Shown: positions 6,992-50,154 of the stretch, one piece after another
Layout of the letters: the number at the start of each line of letters is the position of its first letter
Numbering within the stretch: the first letter of the stretch is position 1
From: an uncultured Pelagibacteraceae bacterium
Lineage (GTDB): Bacteria; Pseudomonadota; Alphaproteobacteria; Pelagibacterales; Pelagibacteraceae
Length of the DNA stretch: 64,000 nt
Assembly (NCBI GenBank): GCA_902617025.1
Contig: CACMVB010000001.1
Span: forward strand, 186,001-250,000
Reading direction: 5' to 3'
Notes under the pieces: generated by a model
What the model was told of the DNA's origin: nothing
The model's input: the letters and a program-made list of their open reading frames with translations, nothing else
The model's database searches: none
Position numbers and translations under genes: made by a program

Positions 6992-8361
6992 GCGGCTTGA
7001 ATAATTTTGTTTGATATTTTTGAATTTTTCTTGATTTCCTCAGAAATTAAGAAAGCTAATTCTAAAGCTTGATCTGCATTTAATCTAGGATCACAATGAG
7101 TCCTATATCTATTTGATAAATCGTTCTCAGATATTTTTTGGGCCCCACCAGTACACTCTGTCACATCTTGACCAGTCATTTCAACATGTAAACCCCCGGC
7201 ATAACTACCCTCTGATTGGCTTACTGCAAAGAAATTTTTAACCTCTTTAAGTACACTTTCAAAAGTTCTTGTTTTAAATCCTGTTGCAGCTTTAATAGTA
7301 TTTCCGTGCATTGGATCACAGGACCAAATTACTTTTAACCCTTCTTTTTTGATCGCTTTGATTAATTTTGGTAAATATTTTTCTACATTATCTGCACCAA
7401 ATCTTGATATCAATGTTAATCTACCTGGTTCATTATCTGGATTTAAAATATTACAAAGATTTACGAGTTCCTCCGGTTTTAATGTTGGTCCACATTTTAA
7501 ACCAATAGGATTTTTAATCCCTCTACAAAACTCTACATGTGCTCCATCAGGTTGTCTTGTTCTGTCTCCTATCCAAACAAAATGTGCAGAGGTATCATGG
7601 TACTCGCCTGTAGTTGAGTCAACTCTGGTCATAGACTCTTCAAAAGGTAAAAGCAAAGCCTCATGAGATGTATAAAAATTTACAGATCTTAATCTTCGAT
7701 TATTGTCAGAATTAATTCCACATGCTTCCATAAAAGCAAGAGCATCACTAATCTTATCCTCTATTTCTTTATACTTACCTTTAGTTTTATCTTTAATAAA
7801 TCCTAAGTTCCATAAATGGACTTGTCTTAAGTCAGCAAATCCTCCTTGCGAAAAAGCTCTTAATAAATTTAAAGTAGATGCAGACTGAGAATATGCTCTA
7901 AATAATCGTTTAGCATCTGGTATTCTAGCTTTTTCTGTAAATTCCATTCCATTAATATTATCACCTAAATAACTTGGTAATTCTTTACCATCTTTTTTTT
8001 CGGTAGGTGCACTTCTTGGTTTTGAAAATTGACCAGCAATTCTTCCAACTTTTACAACTGGCATCGAAGCCGACGCTGTAAGGACCAATGACATTTGTAA
8101 AAGAACTTTAAATGTATCTCTTATATTATCAGGGTGAAATTCAGCAAAACTTTCAGCACAATCTCCACCTTGTAATAAAAAAGCTTTTCCTTCGGCCACA
8201 TCAGCTAGGGCTTTTTTTAGAGACCTAGACTCTCCTGCAAAAACAAGAGGCGGGTATTTTTTTATTTTACTTAATACTAAATCAAGTTCATCTTTATCTT
8301 GATAAACAGGTAAATGTTTAGCAGGGAATTTTGTCCAACTATTTACGCTCCATTTTTTCAT
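6985..8361 (-). CDS. aroG: 3-deoxy-7-phosphoheptulonate synthase, class II
   Basis: The enzyme joins phosphoenolpyruvate and erythrose-4-phosphate in the first step of the shikimate pathway. It is the plant/Mycobacterium class II type. [13 protein letters not shown] (about 65-77) carries the metal-binding Cys, and [14 protein letters not shown] (about 104-117) binds phosphoenolpyruvate. [33 protein letters not shown] and [15 protein letters not shown] are further signature blocks. The 458-residue length fits. I took the ATG at 8361 because it gives the family start MKKWSVNSW; the frame also reaches a TTG two codons upstream. A 75-base gap upstream probably holds its promoter. Confidence 0.93.
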
Positions 8362-33107: not shown

Positions 33108-33716
33108 GTGTCAGAAACAGTCAGTTACTACGAAGATTCAAAAGAGATTGAAAAAAAAATCTGGGATTTATTATCAAAAGCTGTCAAAGATAGATCTTCC
33201 GAATTTAGAACTCCAGTATTTATTTGCGGAAATGATAGAGATCTTGATGGTAGGGTTGTTGTTCTTAGAAAGGCAGATCAACAAAATAATTTTATTCAGT
33301 ACCATAGCGATATTAGATCTTCAAAAATTGAAAAAATTAAAAAAAATCCTAAGTGTTCTATTTTATTTTATGGTAAAGAAGAAAAAATACAGCTTAGAGT
33401 TAAGGCTGAATGCGAAGTAAATTATAATAATGATGTTACAAAAGAGTCTTGGGAAAAAACTGGCCATATCAGTAGAAAATGTTACTTAGTTACTAATGGA
33501 CCAGGAACAGAATCTGAAAAACCGACCTCAGGGTTAGATAATAAGTTTGATAATTTTGATTTTACTAAAGAAGAAAGCGAAGCTGGTTATAAAAACTTTT
33601 GTGTCATTAGATGTAAGGTTAAAAGTATTGAGTGGCTTTATTTGGCAGCCAAAGGTCATCGAAGAGCTTTAATTGATTTGAATGGATCTAAAAAATTTAC
33701 TTGGTTAGTTCCCTAA
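33108..33716 (+). CDS. Pyridoxamine 5'-phosphate oxidase-family FMN protein
   Basis: The 202-residue protein has the split-barrel FMN fold of the Alr4036-like group. The N-terminal half has DGRVVVLRKADQQ and YHSDIRSSKIEKI, where the FMN phosphate binds. The C-terminal segment VKSIEWLYLAAKGHRRALI matches the end of PPOX-type proteins. Substrate is unknown; it is not a clear PdxH. It uses a GTG start 3 bases after the dehydrogenase stop, so the two are likely translated together. Confidence 0.75.
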   Translation: MSETVSYYEDSKEIEKKIWDLLSKAVKDRSSEFRTPVFICGNDRDLDGRVVVLRKADQQNNFIQYHSDIRSSKIEKIKKNPKCSILFYGKEEKIQLRVKAECEVNYNNDVTKESWEKTGHISRKCYLVTNGPGTESEKPTSGLDNKFDNFDFTKEESEAGYKNFCVIRCKVKSIEWLYLAAKGHRRALIDLNGSKKFTWLVP

Positions 33717-34514
33717 TTTTTTGGTAACTTTTTCTTTTGTCGAGCCTAAATTAACTTCATCAAAATAAACAACCATATTTGGATAGGGTTTATCTCCATG
33801 TTCCCTTTTCCACCCGCTTACAAATGTCTGATAAATTCCAAAATCTAGTCCGACACCTCTTTTAGTGTATGGCGTAATATTTTTAATATTCTCAGCATTT
33901 AATATTAATTTATTATTAATCCAAACTTTCATGAATCCATTTTCTTCTCTTGAGTATCGAGCGTTAATTAGTACATCAGTCCATTTTCCTCTCATATCAT
34001 TTATCCTAATTGCCTTTTTCATTTCAACATACTCACCACTCCACATTCTTCCTACTTCTAACCATTCACCACTTCTATCTGTAATCATAAAAATAGGTTT
34101 CCAGCCTTTTTCATAAAGTTGAGCAAAAGTAGTTCTAACAGGGGCTACTGATTGATAGTCTTCGGGTAAATAAATTGATGCAGAATACCAATGATCTTTT
34201 TTACCCATTTGATGTTTTTTGAATTGAAGCTCAGTTCTTTGTCTATCTTTTTTACAATCATCATGTCCGCTATCTTTGCCACAATCACCTAATCTTACTT
34301 CAAATCTGTAAGATTTTTTTCCAGATCTTACAGGATGACCATCTTTACTATTAGCTAAAGTTAGAGAATATTTTTTTTTGTGAGAGATAGTTTTTCTTTT
34401 TACCTCAGTATTAGAGACATCTTTACTGTTTTTAGCTTCCAAATCTGAAAAGCCTGATAATAAAATGGCAAATAAAAAAAAACTATTTCTTATATTTTTT
34501 AATATTTTCAACAT
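33705..34514 (-). CDS. Secreted polysaccharide-lyase-like protein (heparin lyase I/PL7-like jelly roll)
   Basis: Starting from the ATG at 34514 the protein has an N-terminal signal sequence (SFFLFAILLSGFSDLEA). An upstream in-frame start at 34553 would put extra residues before it. The body looks like a beta-jelly-roll lyase: YRFEVRLGD, DRQRTELQF, WYSASIYLPEDY, TTFAQLYEKGWKPIFMI and LDFGIYQTF occur in the order seen in polysaccharide lyases. It may cleave or bind an acidic polysaccharide in the periplasm or outside. Catalytic residues cannot be assigned with confidence. It overlaps the end of the gamma carbonic anhydrase gene by 32 bases. Confidence 0.62.
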   Translation of the reverse strand: MLKILKNIRNSFFLFAILLSGFSDLEAKNSKDVSNTEVKRKTISHKKKYSLTLANSKDGHPVRSGKKSYRFEVRLGDCGKDSGHDDCKKDRQRTELQFKKHQMGKKDHWYSASIYLPEDYQSVAPVRTTFAQLYEKGWKPIFMITDRSGEWLEVGRMWSGEYVEMKKAIRINDMRGKWTDVLINARYSREENGFMKVWINNKLILNAENIKNITPYTKRGVGLDFGIYQTFVSGWKREHGDKPYPNMVVYFDEVNLGSTKEKVTKKLGN

Positions 34515-34986
34515 AGTCTCTGGCGTTTTCTTTAATATGTTGTATCTCTTCATCAGTAACTTGTCTGACTACTTTGCCAGGGCTTCCTAAGACAAGTGAT
34601 CTGTCTGGAATAACTTTATTTTCTGTGACTAATGAGTTTGCTCCGATGATACAATTTTTTCCAATCTTTGCTTTGTTTAAAATAGTTGAGCCTATTCCAA
34701 TAATACAATCATCTGAAATTTCACATCCGTGAAGCATAACCATATGACCTACTGTAACACCTTTGCCTACAATAGTTGGGCATCCTGGATCTGTGTGTAT
34801 TACGCTACCATCTTGAATATTCGAACCTTCGCCAATAATAATTGGTTCTAAATCACCTCTTAAAGTTGCATTAAACCAAATATTAGAATTCTTTTTTAAT
34901 TCAACTCTGCCAATGATAACTGCATTAGAAGCTACCCAGCTGTCTGGATCCATTTTTGGAGTGTGACCGTTAACATCGTAAATCAT
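34483..34986 (-). CDS. Gamma carbonic anhydrase-family protein
   Basis: The 167-residue protein is a left-handed beta-helix of hexapeptide repeats. The zinc His ligands of the gamma class appear in GSVIHTDPG (about 60-68) and VGHMVMLHGC (about 78-87). RGDLEPI and the GSPGKVVR ending are conserved in this family (YrdA/CaiE/PaaY-like). Many members lack proven CO2 hydration activity, so the role remains open. Confidence 0.85.
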   Translation of the reverse strand: MIYDVNGHTPKMDPDSWVASNAVIIGRVELKKNSNIWFNATLRGDLEPIIIGEGSNIQDGSVIHTDPGCPTIVGKGVTVGHMVMLHGCEISDDCIIGIGSTILNKAKIGKNCIIGANSLVTENKVIPDRSLVLGSPGKVVRQVTDEEIQHIKENARDYVENIKKYKK

Positions 34987-38031: not shown

Positions 38032-38829
38032 TTAGTTGCTCTTTAAACTAGGTATTCTTAACCTAAGATTTTTTGATAGTTTTGGATTTATAGTTGCTGT
38101 AATTACACCCTCTGATTTCTTTAATTCTCTAATTATTTCACCATCAGGAGAAATGATTAATGAATGTCCAAATGTTTTTCTTCCATTATAGTGTGTTCCT
38201 CCTTGAGCAGGTGCAAAAATATAACAAAAATTTTCTATAGCTCTAGCTCTCAATAAAGAATGCCAATGTTTCTTGCCAGTTGTCTCAGTAAAGGCAGATG
38301 GAACAGTTAAAAATAACGATCCCGCCTTAGCCAGTTTTCTATATAGAATTGGAAATCTAAGATCGTAACAAATACTTAAACCAATCTTTCCCCAAGGTAA
38401 TTTAAATGTCTTTATTTTGTTTCCTGGATTAAAACTCTTTGACTCAAAATATTTTTCTTTTTTACTTAAATTAACATCATACATATGAATTTTATCATAA
38501 TATGTTCTAACTCTTCCACTTTTATCAATCAAAACAGATCTATTAACTAATTTATTTTTTTGAATTTTAATTATTAAAGATCCTATCAAAATCCATTTTT
38601 TATATTTTTTTGCAAGTTTTTTTATGCCATTAAGGTAAATATCATTTTGCATTGAGGTGCAAATTTTTAGCAGTTCTTTTTTATTTAAAGAGAAATGCGA
38701 AGAAACTTCTGGGGTAATTATAAAATCCGTTTTTTGCTTTACTGCTTTAATAATAAGTTTCGAAGTTTTGTCTAAATTGTAATGAATATTATTGTTTGAT
38801 CTTAATTGAATACAAGAAACACGGAACAT
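38032..38829 (-). CDS. Carbon-nitrogen hydrolase, Nit-type amidase
   Basis: This 265-residue nitrilase-superfamily enzyme has the Glu-Lys-Cys triad. Glu lies in IITPEVSSHFS, Lys in YDKIHMYDV and Cys in LSICYDLRFP. The HWHSLLRARAIENFCYIFAPAQ segment favours the Nit1/Nit2 group, which hydrolyses deaminated glutathione or omega-amides such as 2-oxoglutaramate. The ATG at 38829 shares a base with the speD-speE stop. The position could link it to omega-amidase work after a methionine-salvage transamination, but that is inference. Confidence 0.83.
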   Translation of the reverse strand: MFRVSCIQLRSNNNIHYNLDKTSKLIIKAVKQKTDFIITPEVSSHFSLNKKELLKICTSMQNDIYLNGIKKLAKKYKKWILIGSLIIKIQKNKLVNRSVLIDKSGRVRTYYDKIHMYDVNLSKKEKYFESKSFNPGNKIKTFKLPWGKIGLSICYDLRFPILYRKLAKAGSLFLTVPSAFTETTGKKHWHSLLRARAIENFCYIFAPAQGGTHYNGRKTFGHSLIISPDGEIIRELKKSEGVITATINPKLSKNLRLRIPSLKSN

Positions 38830-39869
38830 TACTTCATTATAGATGAAGCAAAATTCCATTTACAGTCAAAACTAGGGATATAAGCCCCAGATAATTTAAC
38901 ATTTCCAAAGCTTTTTCCTAAAACCTTGCACCATTTATCAACTTGTTTAGGTTTTTTATCCTGGCTTCCAACTTGAGCAGTAATTACACCACCTTTTTTA
39001 AGTATTCTTTTTAAACCTTTCATATTTTTTTTTGCTAAATCAATGCAATATTGATCATCATTTAAATCTACAAAAATTTTATCGTATTTTGAGTCCTCTA
39101 TATCTTTTATGCTTTTAAATGCATCTCCCCAGAAAGTTTTTATTTTATTACTCTTTTTAACTTTAGAGCAAACTTTAGGTAAATGGCGATAACACACATC
39201 TACTATCTCAGGATCTAGTTCAAACCAATCGATATAATTAGAATTGTTTTCTAAACATGCTCTAGCAACACCTCCGTCACCTCCACCAATAATCGCTACA
39301 TTATTATTTTTTTTACTTAGATCATAACTGGATTTAAAAAAATTTGAGCTATAGATTTTTTCATCCTTTTCGGCTACTTGAATTTCATGGTCTATAAATA
39401 ACGCGTGTCCAAATTCTTCTAGGTCCATTATTTCTACAAATTGCCCAACTTTAGAGGTAAATTTTTCTAATACATCTTTGACCACATAGAATTTTTTTTG
39501 GCCTGGGGAACTATAAATATCATCATAAAGACCTATACTACTTCGATCAAAAGCATTAGTCACAACTCTTTGATGGTCAATCTCTTTTCTTAAAATTTTA
39601 AGAGCAACTTTAGGGTTTACTTTCCCACACGTAAAAAAATCAAAACTTATAACGCCTCTTTCAGGGAAGGTATGAAAACTAAAATGACTTTCTGACAATA
39701 GAGCAACTAAAGTAAAGCCTTGTGGTTCAAATCTATGAGAAGCAACGTTTAATATTTCCACCTTTGCAGCTTTTGCTATTTTGTAGATAACTTTTTCGTA
39801 AAATTCTGGTGAATAGTCTTTTTTAACACCAAGAAAATCAATGGTAATGTGCTCACCAACTTTAATCAT
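38829..39869 (-). CDS. Fused S-adenosylmethionine decarboxylase and spermidine synthase
   Basis: Residues 1-120 are a SpeD domain. LLSESHFSFHTFPE places Ser61 as the autocleavage and pyruvoyl residue, with His66 and Cys81 at the spacing seen in class 1b enzymes. Residues about 130-346 are a SpeE-type aminopropyltransferase with IIGGGDGGVARA (SAM-binding loop), WFELDPEIVDVC and the C-terminal fold. The usual D-S-x-D-P block is replaced by FVDLNDDQYC. The fusion makes decarboxylated SAM and transfers its aminopropyl group, releasing methylthioadenosine. The next upstream genes, spaced by 5 bases, are MTA-salvage enzymes. Confidence 0.9.
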   Translation of the reverse strand: MIKVGEHITIDFLGVKKDYSPEFYEKVIYKIAKAAKVEILNVASHRFEPQGFTLVALLSESHFSFHTFPERGVISFDFFTCGKVNPKVALKILRKEIDHQRVVTNAFDRSSIGLYDDIYSSPGQKKFYVVKDVLEKFTSKVGQFVEIMDLEEFGHALFIDHEIQVAEKDEKIYSSNFFKSSYDLSKKNNNVAIIGGGDGGVARACLENNSNYIDWFELDPEIVDVCYRHLPKVCSKVKKSNKIKTFWGDAFKSIKDIEDSKYDKIFVDLNDDQYCIDLAKKNMKGLKRILKKGGVITAQVGSQDKKPKQVDKWCKVLGKSFGNVKLSGAYIPSFDCKWNFASSIMK

Positions 39870-39874
39870 AAAAA

Positions 39875-40519
39875 TTATCCTTTTTTATAATTTTTAAATT
39901 TTCCTAAGACAATTCTCATTTCTTTTTTTGAAAGAATCTTAGGTATACCAATTCTTATGGCATTTATATATTGATGGCAAATATTTTCAATCTCCTGAGC
40001 GAGCTCAAAAGTTTTTTCTAAATTTTCTCCAAAAGCAACCTGGCCGTGATTAGCAATTAAACATGCTGTTCTATTTTTTAGTGCTCTAATAATATTTCTT
40101 GAGAGAATTTTTGTACCAAAAGTAGCATATTTAGTGCATTTAATATCTTCCCCACCTGCCACTGCAACCATGTAGTGAAAAGCTGGGATACTTTTTTGAT
40201 GAGTAGAGACAGCTGTGGCACAAGTAGAGTGAGCGTGAACGATAGCTTTAGCCTCTTTTTTATTCACATAAATATCTTGATGAAATTTCCACTCTGAGGA
40301 TGGTTTACCCTTTTTTTTATCATAAACACCTTTAAGAGAAACAAAGACAATGTCTTTTGTTTTTAAAGAAGAATACTTTCTTCCAGATGGAGTAATATAA
40401 AAACCATCCACTCCTTTTTCTTTTGCTCTTACAGATATATTTCCTGATCTTAAAGCAGATAAATTTGTTATATTTAATTTTTTTGAATATTTTATGACTT
40501 CAGCTTTTTGTTTGCTCAC
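39875..40519 (-). CDS. Class II aldolase/adducin-family protein, probable methylthioribulose-phosphate enzyme
   Basis: The 214-residue protein is of the class II aldolase/MtnB type. IVHAHSTCATAVS (about 91-103) gives the H-x-H zinc pair, and IANHGQVAFG (about 154-163) gives the third His. Near the start are ALRSGNISVRAK and FYITPSGRKYSSL. In this setting it could dehydrate methylthioribulose-1-phosphate (MtnB) or cleave it to dihydroxyacetone phosphate and methylthioacetaldehyde (Ald2 of the DHAP shunt). No mtnC, D or E lies here, which leans to the aldolase reading. It overlaps mtnA by 4 bases. Confidence 0.78.
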   Translation of the reverse strand: MSKQKAEVIKYSKKLNITNLSALRSGNISVRAKEKGVDGFYITPSGRKYSSLKTKDIVFVSLKGVYDKKKGKPSSEWKFHQDIYVNKKEAKAIVHAHSTCATAVSTHQKSIPAFHYMVAVAGGEDIKCTKYATFGTKILSRNIIRALKNRTACLIANHGQVAFGENLEKTFELAQEIENICHQYINAIRIGIPKILSKKEMRIVLGKFKNYKKG

Positions 40520-41586
40520 TTAAATAAACCTTTCAAACCTTTTTCTGAAGCTTCACAAACGCCTTTTTCAGTTATTAAACCTGTAACAAGTTTAGCGGGT
40601 GTAATATCAAAAGCTAAGTTTAATGATTTACTTTTTTGTGGGTAAATTCTTACTTTTTTAATTTCATTATTTTCATCTATTCCTTCAACATATGATAATT
40701 CCTCTGAATTTCTTTCCTCGATGGGAATTTGTCTATGATCTTTAATGCTCCAGTCTATAGTTGAACTTGGTAATGCAACATAAAAAGGAATATTATTATC
40801 TTTTGCAGATAAAGCTTTTAAATAAGTTCCAATTTTATTGCATACGTCACCATTAGACAAAGTTCTATCGGTTCCAACGATGCACATATCTACTAGTCCT
40901 CTTTGCATTAAAATACCACCTGCATTATCTGTTATAACTGTGTTTGAAATTCCCTCTTCATTTAATTCATAAGAAGTTAAATTTGCTCCTTGATTTCTTG
41001 GTCTTGTTTCGTCTACCCAAACATGAATTTTAATACCTTTTTTATGAGCATGATATATCGGCGAAGTAGCAGTCCCCCAATCTATAGTTGCTAACCAACC
41101 TGCGTTGCAATGGGTTAAAATATTAACTGTACCCTTTTTTTTGTTAGCAATGTCTTCAATAATTTTAAGGCCATTCAAACCGATATCTTTACAAAATTTT
41201 TCATCCTCTTCTGTAATCGCCTTTGCCTCATCTAAAGCTATTTTCAAGATATCTTTTTCATTTACTCCTGATAACTTTTTCATCATTCTGTCTACAGCCC
41301 ACTTTAAATTTATTGCAGTGGGTCTAGAAGCAATTAACTCTTCACTAGATTTCTTTAAAAAAGATAAATCATTTTTTTCTATTATAGATAAGACTAAACC
41401 ATAGGAAGCAGTAGCACCAATTAATGGGGCACCTCTCACCTCCATAATTTTAATGGCATTAATCGCATCTTTTACAGTTTTTAAATCTTTAATGATAAAC
41501 TGATGAGGAAGCTTTGTTTGATCAATAATTTTAACTAAATTATTCTCAAACCAAATGGTCTTGTAAGCCTCTCCCATTATTTTCAT
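40516..41586 (-). CDS. mtnA: Methylthioribose-1-phosphate isomerase
   Basis: MtnA isomerises methylthioribose-1-phosphate to the ribulose form. The 356-residue protein has the family signatures MEVRGAPLIGATASYG (about 48-63), ILTHCNAGWLAT (about 158-169, with the catalytic Cys), VDETRPRNQGANLTSYE and GTDRTLSNGDVCNKIGTY (about 238-255, with the catalytic Asp). Both ends overlap neighbours by 4 bases, indicating coupled translation with the tautomerase upstream and aldolase downstream. Confidence 0.94.
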   Translation of the reverse strand: MKIMGEAYKTIWFENNLVKIIDQTKLPHQFIIKDLKTVKDAINAIKIMEVRGAPLIGATASYGLVLSIIEKNDLSFLKKSSEELIASRPTAINLKWAVDRMMKKLSGVNEKDILKIALDEAKAITEEDEKFCKDIGLNGLKIIEDIANKKKGTVNILTHCNAGWLATIDWGTATSPIYHAHKKGIKIHVWVDETRPRNQGANLTSYELNEEGISNTVITDNAGGILMQRGLVDMCIVGTDRTLSNGDVCNKIGTYLKALSAKDNNIPFYVALPSSTIDWSIKDHRQIPIEERNSEELSYVEGIDENNEIKKVRIYPQKSKSLNLAFDITPAKLVTGLITEKGVCEASEKGLKGLFK

Positions 41587-42029
41587 TTACTTTTTTCCAT
41601 TTTTTTTAATCTTTTTCTTAAACTTGGTGGTAAAGAATTAAACCATTTTTTTTCCTTTCCTGATTTAGGCAAAACTTCTCCATATTCAATCATTTGATCC
41701 GGTATCAAATCTTCCAAGTAAACCCAAACAAAATCGCTCTGTAACTTTGTGTTCTTAATTAAAATTTTTTTCAAACCTAAAATTAATTCTTTTTTGACTT
41801 TTGATGTTCTTCCGGCTCTTATTTGTCCATTTAAGAAAATTTCCTTAGTTTTAACTAATTTTCCACCCATGAAATGAGCATTTTTTTGATTTTTTTGAAA
41901 AATTACTTGAGCAAAAAATGTATTTGCTCCCGTATATTTACTGTGAGTATTCGTAATAGCTTTGGCAATAGAATTTTTTTGTTTTGGTGAAAGATTTATA
42001 TTTGAATATTTTACCGTATAAGTTGGCAT
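41583..42029 (-). CDS. cis-CaaD-like tautomerase
   Basis: The 148-residue protein starts MPTYTV, so Pro1 (after Met removal) can act as the catalytic base. Numbering from that Pro, His28, Arg70, Arg73, Tyr103 and Glu114 all fall at the positions used by cis-3-chloroacrylic acid dehalogenase. The surrounding segments FFAQVIFQ, GQIRAGRT, WVYLEDLIPDQMIEYG and EKKWFNSLP also resemble that family. It is set between mtnP (5-base gap) and mtnA (4-base overlap), so a role in methylthioribose metabolism is likely but undescribed as far as I know. True dehalogenase activity is not implied. Confidence 0.85.
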   Translation of the reverse strand: MPTYTVKYSNINLSPKQKNSIAKAITNTHSKYTGANTFFAQVIFQKNQKNAHFMGGKLVKTKEIFLNGQIRAGRTSKVKKELILGLKKILIKNTKLQSDFVWVYLEDLIPDQMIEYGEVLPKSGKEKKWFNSLPPSLRKRLKKMEKSK

Positions 42030-42955: not shown

Positions 42956-43483
42956 ATGGATTTAAAAAAATACATTCGGTCTATTCCAGACTATCCTAAA
43001 AAGGGAATTTTATTTAGAGACATTACAACTCTGATAAAAAATGCTGAGGCTTTTACGTATACCAATAATAAAATTATTGAATTATCAAAAAAAATTGAAT
43101 TTGATAAAGTTGCAGCAATTGAATCTAGAGGATTTGTTTTCGCAGCACCTCTATCACATCAACTAAAAAAACCATTCATTCTTTTGAGAAAAAAAGATAA
43201 ACTTCCAGCTGATACTCATTCTGTTGATTTTGAGCTCGAATATGGAAAAGCCTCGATTGAGGTTCACAAGGACTCTATACAAAAAAACGAGAATATATTG
43301 ATAATAGATGACCTTATTGCTACAGGTGGCACAGCTGAAGCAGCTGCAAAACTTGTAGAAATTTCTGGAGGCAAAGTTGCAGGTTTTATATTTGTGATAA
43401 ATTTGTTTGATTTACCTGGAAATGATCTTCTAAAAAAAAAAGGTTATATAACTAATAGTTTAATTGAATTTCCTGGACATTAA
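42956..43483 (+). CDS. apt: Adenine phosphoribosyltransferase
   Basis: This 175-residue PRTase has IRSIPDYPKKGILFRDITTL at its start, typical of Apt, AAIESRGFVFAAPLS (about 54-68), and the PRPP loop NILIIDDLIATGGTAEAA (about 113-130). It converts adenine and PRPP to AMP. It faces mtnP, which releases adenine. The 3' end overlaps the convergent epimerase gene by 4 bases. Confidence 0.95.
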   Translation: MDLKKYIRSIPDYPKKGILFRDITTLIKNAEAFTYTNNKIIELSKKIEFDKVAAIESRGFVFAAPLSHQLKKPFILLRKKDKLPADTHSVDFELEYGKASIEVHKDSIQKNENILIIDDLIATGGTAEAAAKLVEISGGKVAGFIFVINLFDLPGNDLLKKKGYITNSLIEFPGH

Positions 43484-50077: not shown

Positions 50078-50154
50078 TGGTAGCGGGAAGTGGGATCGAA
50101 CCACTGACCTCGGGCTTATGAGTCCCGCGCTCTAACCAACTGAGCTACCCCGCC
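50078..50154 (-). tRNA. tRNA-Met (anticodon CAT)
   Basis: A 77-base cloverleaf reads on the minus strand from GGCGGGG (50154) to an encoded CCA (50078). It has a GCTC/GAGC D-stem, anticodon loop CTCATAA and T-arm AGTGG-TTCGATC-CCACT. The acceptor stem pairs with G-U at both ends. The last pair of the anticodon stem is A-G, a mismatch. Loop and body fit elongator Met, but a CAT anticodon can also mean Ile2 with lysidine; I favour Met. Confidence 0.88.

Follow-up and report, generated by a model that had tools for sequence, protein, structure and literature searches.

In cis-3-chloroacrylic acid dehalogenase (cis-CaaD) Glu114 activates water, and in the related protein Cg10062 decarboxylation leads to acetaldehyde. 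The part of PMC5818174 available to us lists Pro1, His28, Arg70, Arg73, Tyr103 and Glu114 for cis-CaaD and ascribes the same six residues to Cg10062, which is yet an inefficient cis-CaaD, so that the residue set does not fix the reaction; Cg10062-type proteins appear there as proteins without a known natural role. Excerpts of PMC11641302 assign substrate binding in cis-CaaD to Arg70 and Arg73 and a part in specificity and catalysis to His28 and Tyr103, give malonate semialdehyde as the product and name carboxylic acids as substrates. Likewise, the substrates in the PDB titles of cis-CaaD are carboxylic acids, and for cis-CaaD as well as Cg10062 such titles describe mutants with covalent intermediates from the hydration of acetylenecarboxylate. 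A second described system that bears on the present locus is the DHAP shunt, of which an MtnP variant is mentioned in an extract of PMC10986504, while a multidomain SpeE originating from gene fusion in SAR11 is mentioned in an extract of PMC8437039. In this study we consider a SAR11 operon in which a relative of cis-CaaD lies amid genes of methylthioadenosine (MTA) metabolism.

The operon and its tautomerase

The window, that is, the whole stretch of 64,000 nucleotides analysed, belongs to a genome of 1.04 Mb that is 98.8% complete and whose nearest named relatives mark it as one of the Pelagibacteraceae, and contains the following genes at the locus.

38032..38859, minus strand: carbon-nitrogen hydrolase, NIT2/deaminated-glutathione-amidase-like (PF00795, E 1.3e-48)
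38829..39869, minus strand: speD-speE fusion, AdoMet decarboxylase and spermidine synthase, source of MTA (PF02675 and PF01564)
39875..40519, minus strand: class II aldolase, FucA/Ald2-like, presumed 5-methylthioribulose-1-phosphate aldolase of the DHAP shunt (PF00596, E 3.7e-47)
40516..41586, minus strand: mtnA, S-methyl-5-thioribose-1-phosphate isomerase (TIGR00512, 415 bits, cut-off 279)
41583..42029, minus strand: cis-CaaD/Cg10062-type tautomerase-superfamily protein, 148 aa, with the six cis-CaaD catalytic residues
42035..42910, minus strand: mtnP, S-methyl-5'-thioadenosine phosphorylase (TIGR01694, 315 bits, cut-off 275; NF006492, 442 bits, cut-off 437)
42956..43483, plus strand: apt, adenine phosphoribosyltransferase, divergent from mtnP (TIGR01090, 199 bits, cut-off 186)

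The tautomerase is read from 42029 to 41583 and begins with MPTYTV; frame 1 of the plus strand contains many stops across the same stretch. The gene starts after a 5-base gap from the mtnP stop (42035 to 42029) and its own stop at 41583 overlaps the mtnA start at 41586 by 4 bases; this gap and overlap agree with the initial annotation, which named no strand, and all three genes are on the minus strand. Both neighbours pass their NCBIfam cut-offs. The tautomerase is probably co-transcribed with the mtnP-mtnA operon. The aldolase is closest in the PDB to FucA (E 9e-46), with 6btd at E 1.7e-36; against the MtnB model TIGR03328 it scores 68 bits, far under the cut-off of 137, and no NCBIfam aldolase model reaches its cut-off among the best 25 of 29 matches. 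The carbon-nitrogen hydrolase, which overlaps speDE, finds NIT domain proteins as its best PDB matches and stays under the NCBIfam cut-offs. Acireductone dioxygenase (MtnD, PF03079), the mark of universal methionine salvage, was not found in this 98.8% complete genome by a profile that, in a control, matched 5 of 14 named genomes and exceeded its cut-off in 2. With mtnP, mtnA and an Ald2-type class II aldolase, the substrate of which is presumed, in one operon and no acireductone dioxygenase in the genome, we therefore read the locus as a putative MtnP-type DHAP shunt rather than as universal methionine salvage, one that would be fed by MTA from spermidine synthesis. A search of the whole window with Rfam at gathering thresholds revealed no riboswitch at the operon, the sole match being a tRNA at 50081-50154 (minus strand). 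Elsewhere in the window a Polysacc_lyase match (PF14099, E 6.7e-23) lies at 33705-34553 (minus strand), a few kb from a surface-sugar gene region.

Counting from the Pro after the start Met, residues 1, 28, 70, 73, 103 and 114 of the tautomerase are P, H, R, R, Y and E, and all six are invariant in the 57 aligned copies from the order (57 of 58, the G237 copy being truncated by its contig end). The complete set of cis-CaaD residues claimed from the first inspection is thereby borne out, as is the kinship to Cg10062, which is the closest solved relative: the alignment to Cg10062 is gap-free with 55 of 146 positions identical (38%), and that to cis-CaaD, for which the sequence used was a T34A mutant, is likewise gap-free with 50 of 138 identical (36%). 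Among PDB sequences phmmer ranks Cg10062 first (3n4g, E 9.6e-28) and finds cis-CaaD 2flt at E 7.2e-21. The Pfam family Tautomerase_3 (PF14832) matches at 39.9 bits against a gathering score of 25.7 (E 6.4e-10), which together with Pro1 in 57 of 57 copies places the protein in the tautomerase superfamily.

An AlphaFold model, built from 24 natural sequences, has a pLDDT of 90 and a pTM of 0.84. In a Foldseek search with this model the first 39 rows comprise cis-CaaD, Cg10062, their chimera, the relatives N1 and Ps01740, and one designed protein, with E about 1e-13 and probability 1 for cis-CaaD and Cg10062. The VIA superpositions extend over 107-108 residues, with Z from 13.4 to 16.3 across the cis-CaaD and Cg10062 entries (16.3 to Cg10062 3n4g, 15.1 to cis-CaaD 2flt). 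Since they place model residues 2-109 on chain residues 1-108, the fold of the cis-CaaD subgroup is found over residues 2-109, and the superposition on cis-CaaD proposed at the outset confirms the fold and five of the six residues; the C-terminal 39 residues, including Glu114, lie outside it, so that the assignment of Glu114 rests on the gap-free sequence alignment. The whole-chain Foldseek rmsd is 16-17 Å for full-length entries, which presumably reflects a different placement of the C-terminal part in the model. The likeness to cis-CaaD and Cg10062 is not due to chance, and the protein is a further member of the known cis-CaaD subgroup by its six residues and fold, with a putative enzymatic activity.

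Distribution, gene settings and history

Of the 297 genomes sampled from the order, 58 have the tautomerase, always as a single copy; mtnA was found in 205 and aldolase matches, weak ones included, in 230. For every copy but that of the window (57 in all), and for further mtnA loci, the flanking DNA was fetched, and the settings were assigned by an automatic rule on neighbours, their Pfam families being taken from example loci. Setting A, between mtnP and mtnA, accounts for 15 of the 58 copies (13 complete loci, that of the window, and one that breaks off at a contig end after mtnP). The commonest is setting B (28 of 58), at most two genes from a hexapeptide-repeat or PNPOx-like protein. Eight copies are in setting C, flanked on one side by an SSF symporter and an M50 peptidase and on the other by an ABC transporter; four are in setting D, with an ABC transporter on one side and a Methyltransf_4 gene on the other; the three others include L087, although the only flank visible there looks like setting C. 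Setting B belongs to the same variable region as setting A and is not independent of it: in at least 15 of its 28 copies the distance to mtnA, on the shared strand, is 5.6-13.7 kb. The gene order mtnP-tautomerase-mtnA that the initial annotation proposed to survey is seen in 15 copies, and the other 43 lie in other settings. Among 80 named loci, 63 fall in setting A (one of them ending before mtnA), 11 in B, one in C and five elsewhere, three of the last being from Polynucleobacter; these loci are the best 80 of 251 by similarity to a query headed by the window protein, a ranking that favours setting A, and some of their genomes are also in the order sample. No constant partner gene emerged among the examples scanned across settings, and the three Polynucleobacter loci also differ. 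At L051 (10379-12508) the gene after the tautomerase is an aldehyde dehydrogenase, accompanied by a DUF779 gene, this being the locus scanned; at L058, L064, L073 and L082 the same pair was judged by length and position.

Wider surveys found matches in 15 of 337 genomes of the class, several of them weak, and in 10 of 398 genomes of the phylum, the window included in both. Seven of the ten phylum genomes were examined further, G745 and G635 being left out. Around twelve relatives outside the order (nine class or phylum survey matches and the three Polynucleobacter loci, two of whose contigs end within 0.5 kb of the tautomerase) tblastn detected no mtnP, mtnA or aldolase in any of the fetched flanks. 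Ten of the twelve carry all six residues. The other two, from one genus, have Ala in place of Pro1 (MATY...) with His28, Arg70, Arg73, Tyr103 and Glu114 intact (L218:7187-7627, minus strand; L219 near 7118-7540, minus strand).

Within the order no mtnA was detected in 11 of the 58 carriers, and only one of these 11 belongs to setting A. Taken over all carriers, mtnA is somewhat more frequent (47 of 58) than in genomes lacking the tautomerase (158 of 239; p 0.028), 14 of the 47 being adjacent by definition; outside setting A it is not clearly more frequent, at 33 of 43 against the same 158 of 239 (Fisher p 0.22). Both tests ignore phylogeny and genome incompleteness, and incomplete genomes may hide some mtnA. 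The consistent co-occurrence to be expected of an enzyme of MTA salvage is thus not seen. Genome G154 has kept apt and speDE, separated by 594 bp, and has its tautomerase elsewhere; a tblastn search of the fetched stretch detected none of mtnP, mtnA and the aldolase.

A tautomerase tree was made by a quick method from Cg10062 and 62 of the 126 distinct rows, of which 20 came from the mtn setting and 18 from setting B, together with all 24 from elsewhere. In it setting A forms one clade (SH-aLRT 93), in which AG-430-F02, locus L175, branches deepest. Eleven of the 15 class-survey loci are outside this tree, ten because no ORF was recognised as the tautomerase and L191 because it is the window itself; one of the eleven, G620, was later examined (refetched as L226). 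At the deep-branching L175 locus mtnP-tautomerase-mtnA is followed by genes of 186, 252 and 553 aa, which by eye resemble biotin-protein ligase, type III pantothenate kinase and ribonuclease J. The notion that the tautomerase stands in for a missing salvage enzyme (MtnB, C, D or W) was discarded, the genes suspected there of being mtnD and mtnC looking otherwise. When mtnP and mtnA proteins are concatenated and a tree is made of them, the setting A rows appear in three places among rows without a tautomerase at the junction. Both an old insertion with several losses and a later transfer of the cassette fit the trees.

Other clades of the same genus keep mtnP and mtnA without a tautomerase between them. 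In 28 mtnP-mtnA junctions the two genes adjoin directly, 26 with overlaps of 4 or 1 bases and two, by our own start calls, with overlaps of 35-38, and in relatives seven junctions hold other genes, for example:

L090:9852-11033: DUF1574-like protein of 393 aa
L110:8504-8956: GFA-family protein of 150 aa
L109:8199-8861: outer-membrane barrel, on the opposite strand

Because the junction is empty in 28 loci and occupied by other genes in seven, it is best described as a site that tolerates insertion. Between mtnA and the aldolase there is another such site (for example L040:11362-12288 and L045:7454-8584), where 11 loci have just a 308-aa gene, five just one of 376 or 377 aa, and three have both, some genomes being counted twice; of the single representatives scanned, the 308-aa gene of L040 is Abhydrolase_2 and the 376-aa gene of L045 has no Pfam match. 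At L168 (7511-9055) the ORF after mtnA looks by eye like a GDSL-type surface protein in its first half and a malate/lactate dehydrogenase in its second, which we read as a recombination junction or a single-cell amplification chimera.

Where the tautomerase is inserted, the arrangement is tight. The gap after mtnP is 4-6 bases in 70 of 76 loci, and mtnA follows at a spacing between -4 and +1 in 63 of 75; in the other 12 the ORF caller placed the mtnA start about 60 bases upstream. The dN/dS of the window tautomerase against 76 setting A rows has a median of 0.067 and a maximum of 0.21, so that the protein is under purifying selection; loci L031-L087 and L111-L190 share genomes, and these 76 rows and the junction counts are therefore not all independent.

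Possible functions

The reading that we favour, and that we hold to be somewhat better than an even bet, is an autonomous, cofactor-free hydratase of the cis-CaaD/Cg10062 type, an accessory enzyme that would act on a small unsaturated carboxylate and was inserted into the operon. From the residues of the tautomerase and the known mechanism of cis-CaaD, such a carboxylate is the most likely compound to be hydrated. In the mechanism that we envisage, a small acid, either a cis-3-substituted acrylate or one of the propiolate type, would be bound through its carboxylate by Arg70 and Arg73. Water, activated by Glu114 together with Tyr103 and His28, would attack C3, and Pro1 would take care of the C2 proton. 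This would yield malonate semialdehyde, which might then be decarboxylated to acetaldehyde. As to a malonate semialdehyde dehydrogenase as partner, a candidate considered and not retained, TIGR01722 (methylmalonate-semialdehyde dehydrogenase) matches two aldehyde dehydrogenases in the source genome, both below its cut-off. Such an enzyme could have a self-contained role in scavenging or detoxification, would be no fixed step of MTA salvage, and in one SAR11 lineage would have come to lie between mtnP and mtnA of a DHAP-shunt operon. A hydratase or decarboxylase as in Cg10062 was the alternative offered in the initial annotation, and it is the one preferred here. Against its independence stands the coupling to mtnP (70 of 76 loci) within a single setting A clade, an arrangement long kept, as a functional link predicts.

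This coupling leads to the next alternative, which we consider unlikely: that the tautomerase is a clade-specific helper of the DHAP shunt, useful and dispensable, removing a by-product of methylthioacetaldehyde or of acetaldehyde derived from 5'-deoxyadenosine. According to the available extract of PMC10986504 the shunt yields 2-methylthioacetaldehyde or acetaldehyde, and the strong purifying selection, the at least 15 of 28 setting B copies still within 14 kb of mtnA, and the gene of 515-590 aa that follows the tautomerase at L051, L058, L064, L073 and L082 would all suit such a helper. The tautomerase is, however, also present in several other settings and in genomes without detected mtnA, the other clades of the genus manage with mtnP-mtnA without it, and the shunt aldehydes offer no carboxylate to the two arginines.

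Less probable again, the protein could be an ordinary keto-enol tautomerase that acts, say, on acids resembling phenylenolpyruvate and has only retained cis-CaaD-like residues. Membership of the superfamily is consistent with this idea, and in the part of PMC5818174 available all linker-set enzymes, cis-CaaD and CgX included, have phenylenolpyruvate tautomerase activity. That activity, however, is described in the same source as dropping stepwise away from 4-OT, whereas the nearest relatives here are cis-CaaD and CgX, and the invariance of Glu114, Tyr103 and His28 in 57 of 57 copies also argues otherwise.

The main idea of the initial annotation, that the protein catalyses a genuine step in MTA salvage with MTRu-1-P or the corresponding enol as substrate, has become very improbable. 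Its strength lies in the order mtnP-tautomerase-mtnA in 15 of 58 copies in the order and in 63 of the 80 best-ranked named loci; yet only those 15 copies lie beside mtnP or mtnA, ten carriers outside setting A show no mtnA, and related genomes have the 28 empty junctions and the seven with other genes. The proposed substrates fit poorly, MTRu-1-P being a phosphate ester and both it and methylthioacetaldehyde being without a carboxylate for Arg70 and Arg73, and in the accessible text of PMC10986504 the MtnA-Ald2 route works elsewhere without a tautomerase. The accompanying statement that MTA salvage has no known tautomerase step agrees with print as far as we searched it: among open-licence PMC papers, a weak basis for absence, none linking tautomerase, methylthioadenosine and mtnA was found, those listed for tautomerase with methylthio contained nothing relevant by title, and tautomerase with Pelagibacter returned, in the text available, an archaeal 4-oxalocrotonate tautomerase alone.

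SAR11 is a highly abundant ocean bacterium that requires sulfur. Hydrolysis of a C-S bond without a cofactor, releasing methanethiol and malonate semialdehyde from cis-3-(methylthio)acrylate or from a similar vinyl thioether acid that arises in the metabolism of methylthio compounds or DMSP, would, if true, give SAR11 a methanethiol route and explain the recruitment into a methylthio-handling operon, but it is drawn by analogy with chloride loss in cis-CaaD and is the least probable of the readings considered.

Comparison with described systems

The operon resembles the DHAP shunt (MtnP or Pfs with MtnK, then MtnA and Ald2) in that mtnP, mtnA and a FucA/Ald2-like aldolase are likewise together; it differs in the speD-speE fusion and the carbon-nitrogen hydrolase further along on the same strand, and in the tautomerase, which does not figure in the pathway in the extract of PMC10986504 available. 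In this context the locus is a warning that membership of an operon in the streamlined SAR11 genomes can mean insertion at a permissive junction rather than a common pathway. With cis-CaaD the tautomerase shares the six residues and the fold at 36% identity over 138 positions, and differs at position 34, which is Thr in cis-CaaD and Ala in the SAR11 protein; the six other operon-region proteins scanned include no haloacrylate catabolic enzymes. Cg10062 (CgX, PDB 3n4g) comes nearer, having the same six residues and likewise Ala34 at 38% identity over 146 positions, although its source, Corynebacterium glutamicum, is an actinobacterium, unlike that of the SAR11 tautomerase. With its full residue set, its spread over roughly one in five genomes sampled from the order and its varied gene settings, this family could provide both an ecological setting in which to seek the role of Cg10062 and many natural variants of it.
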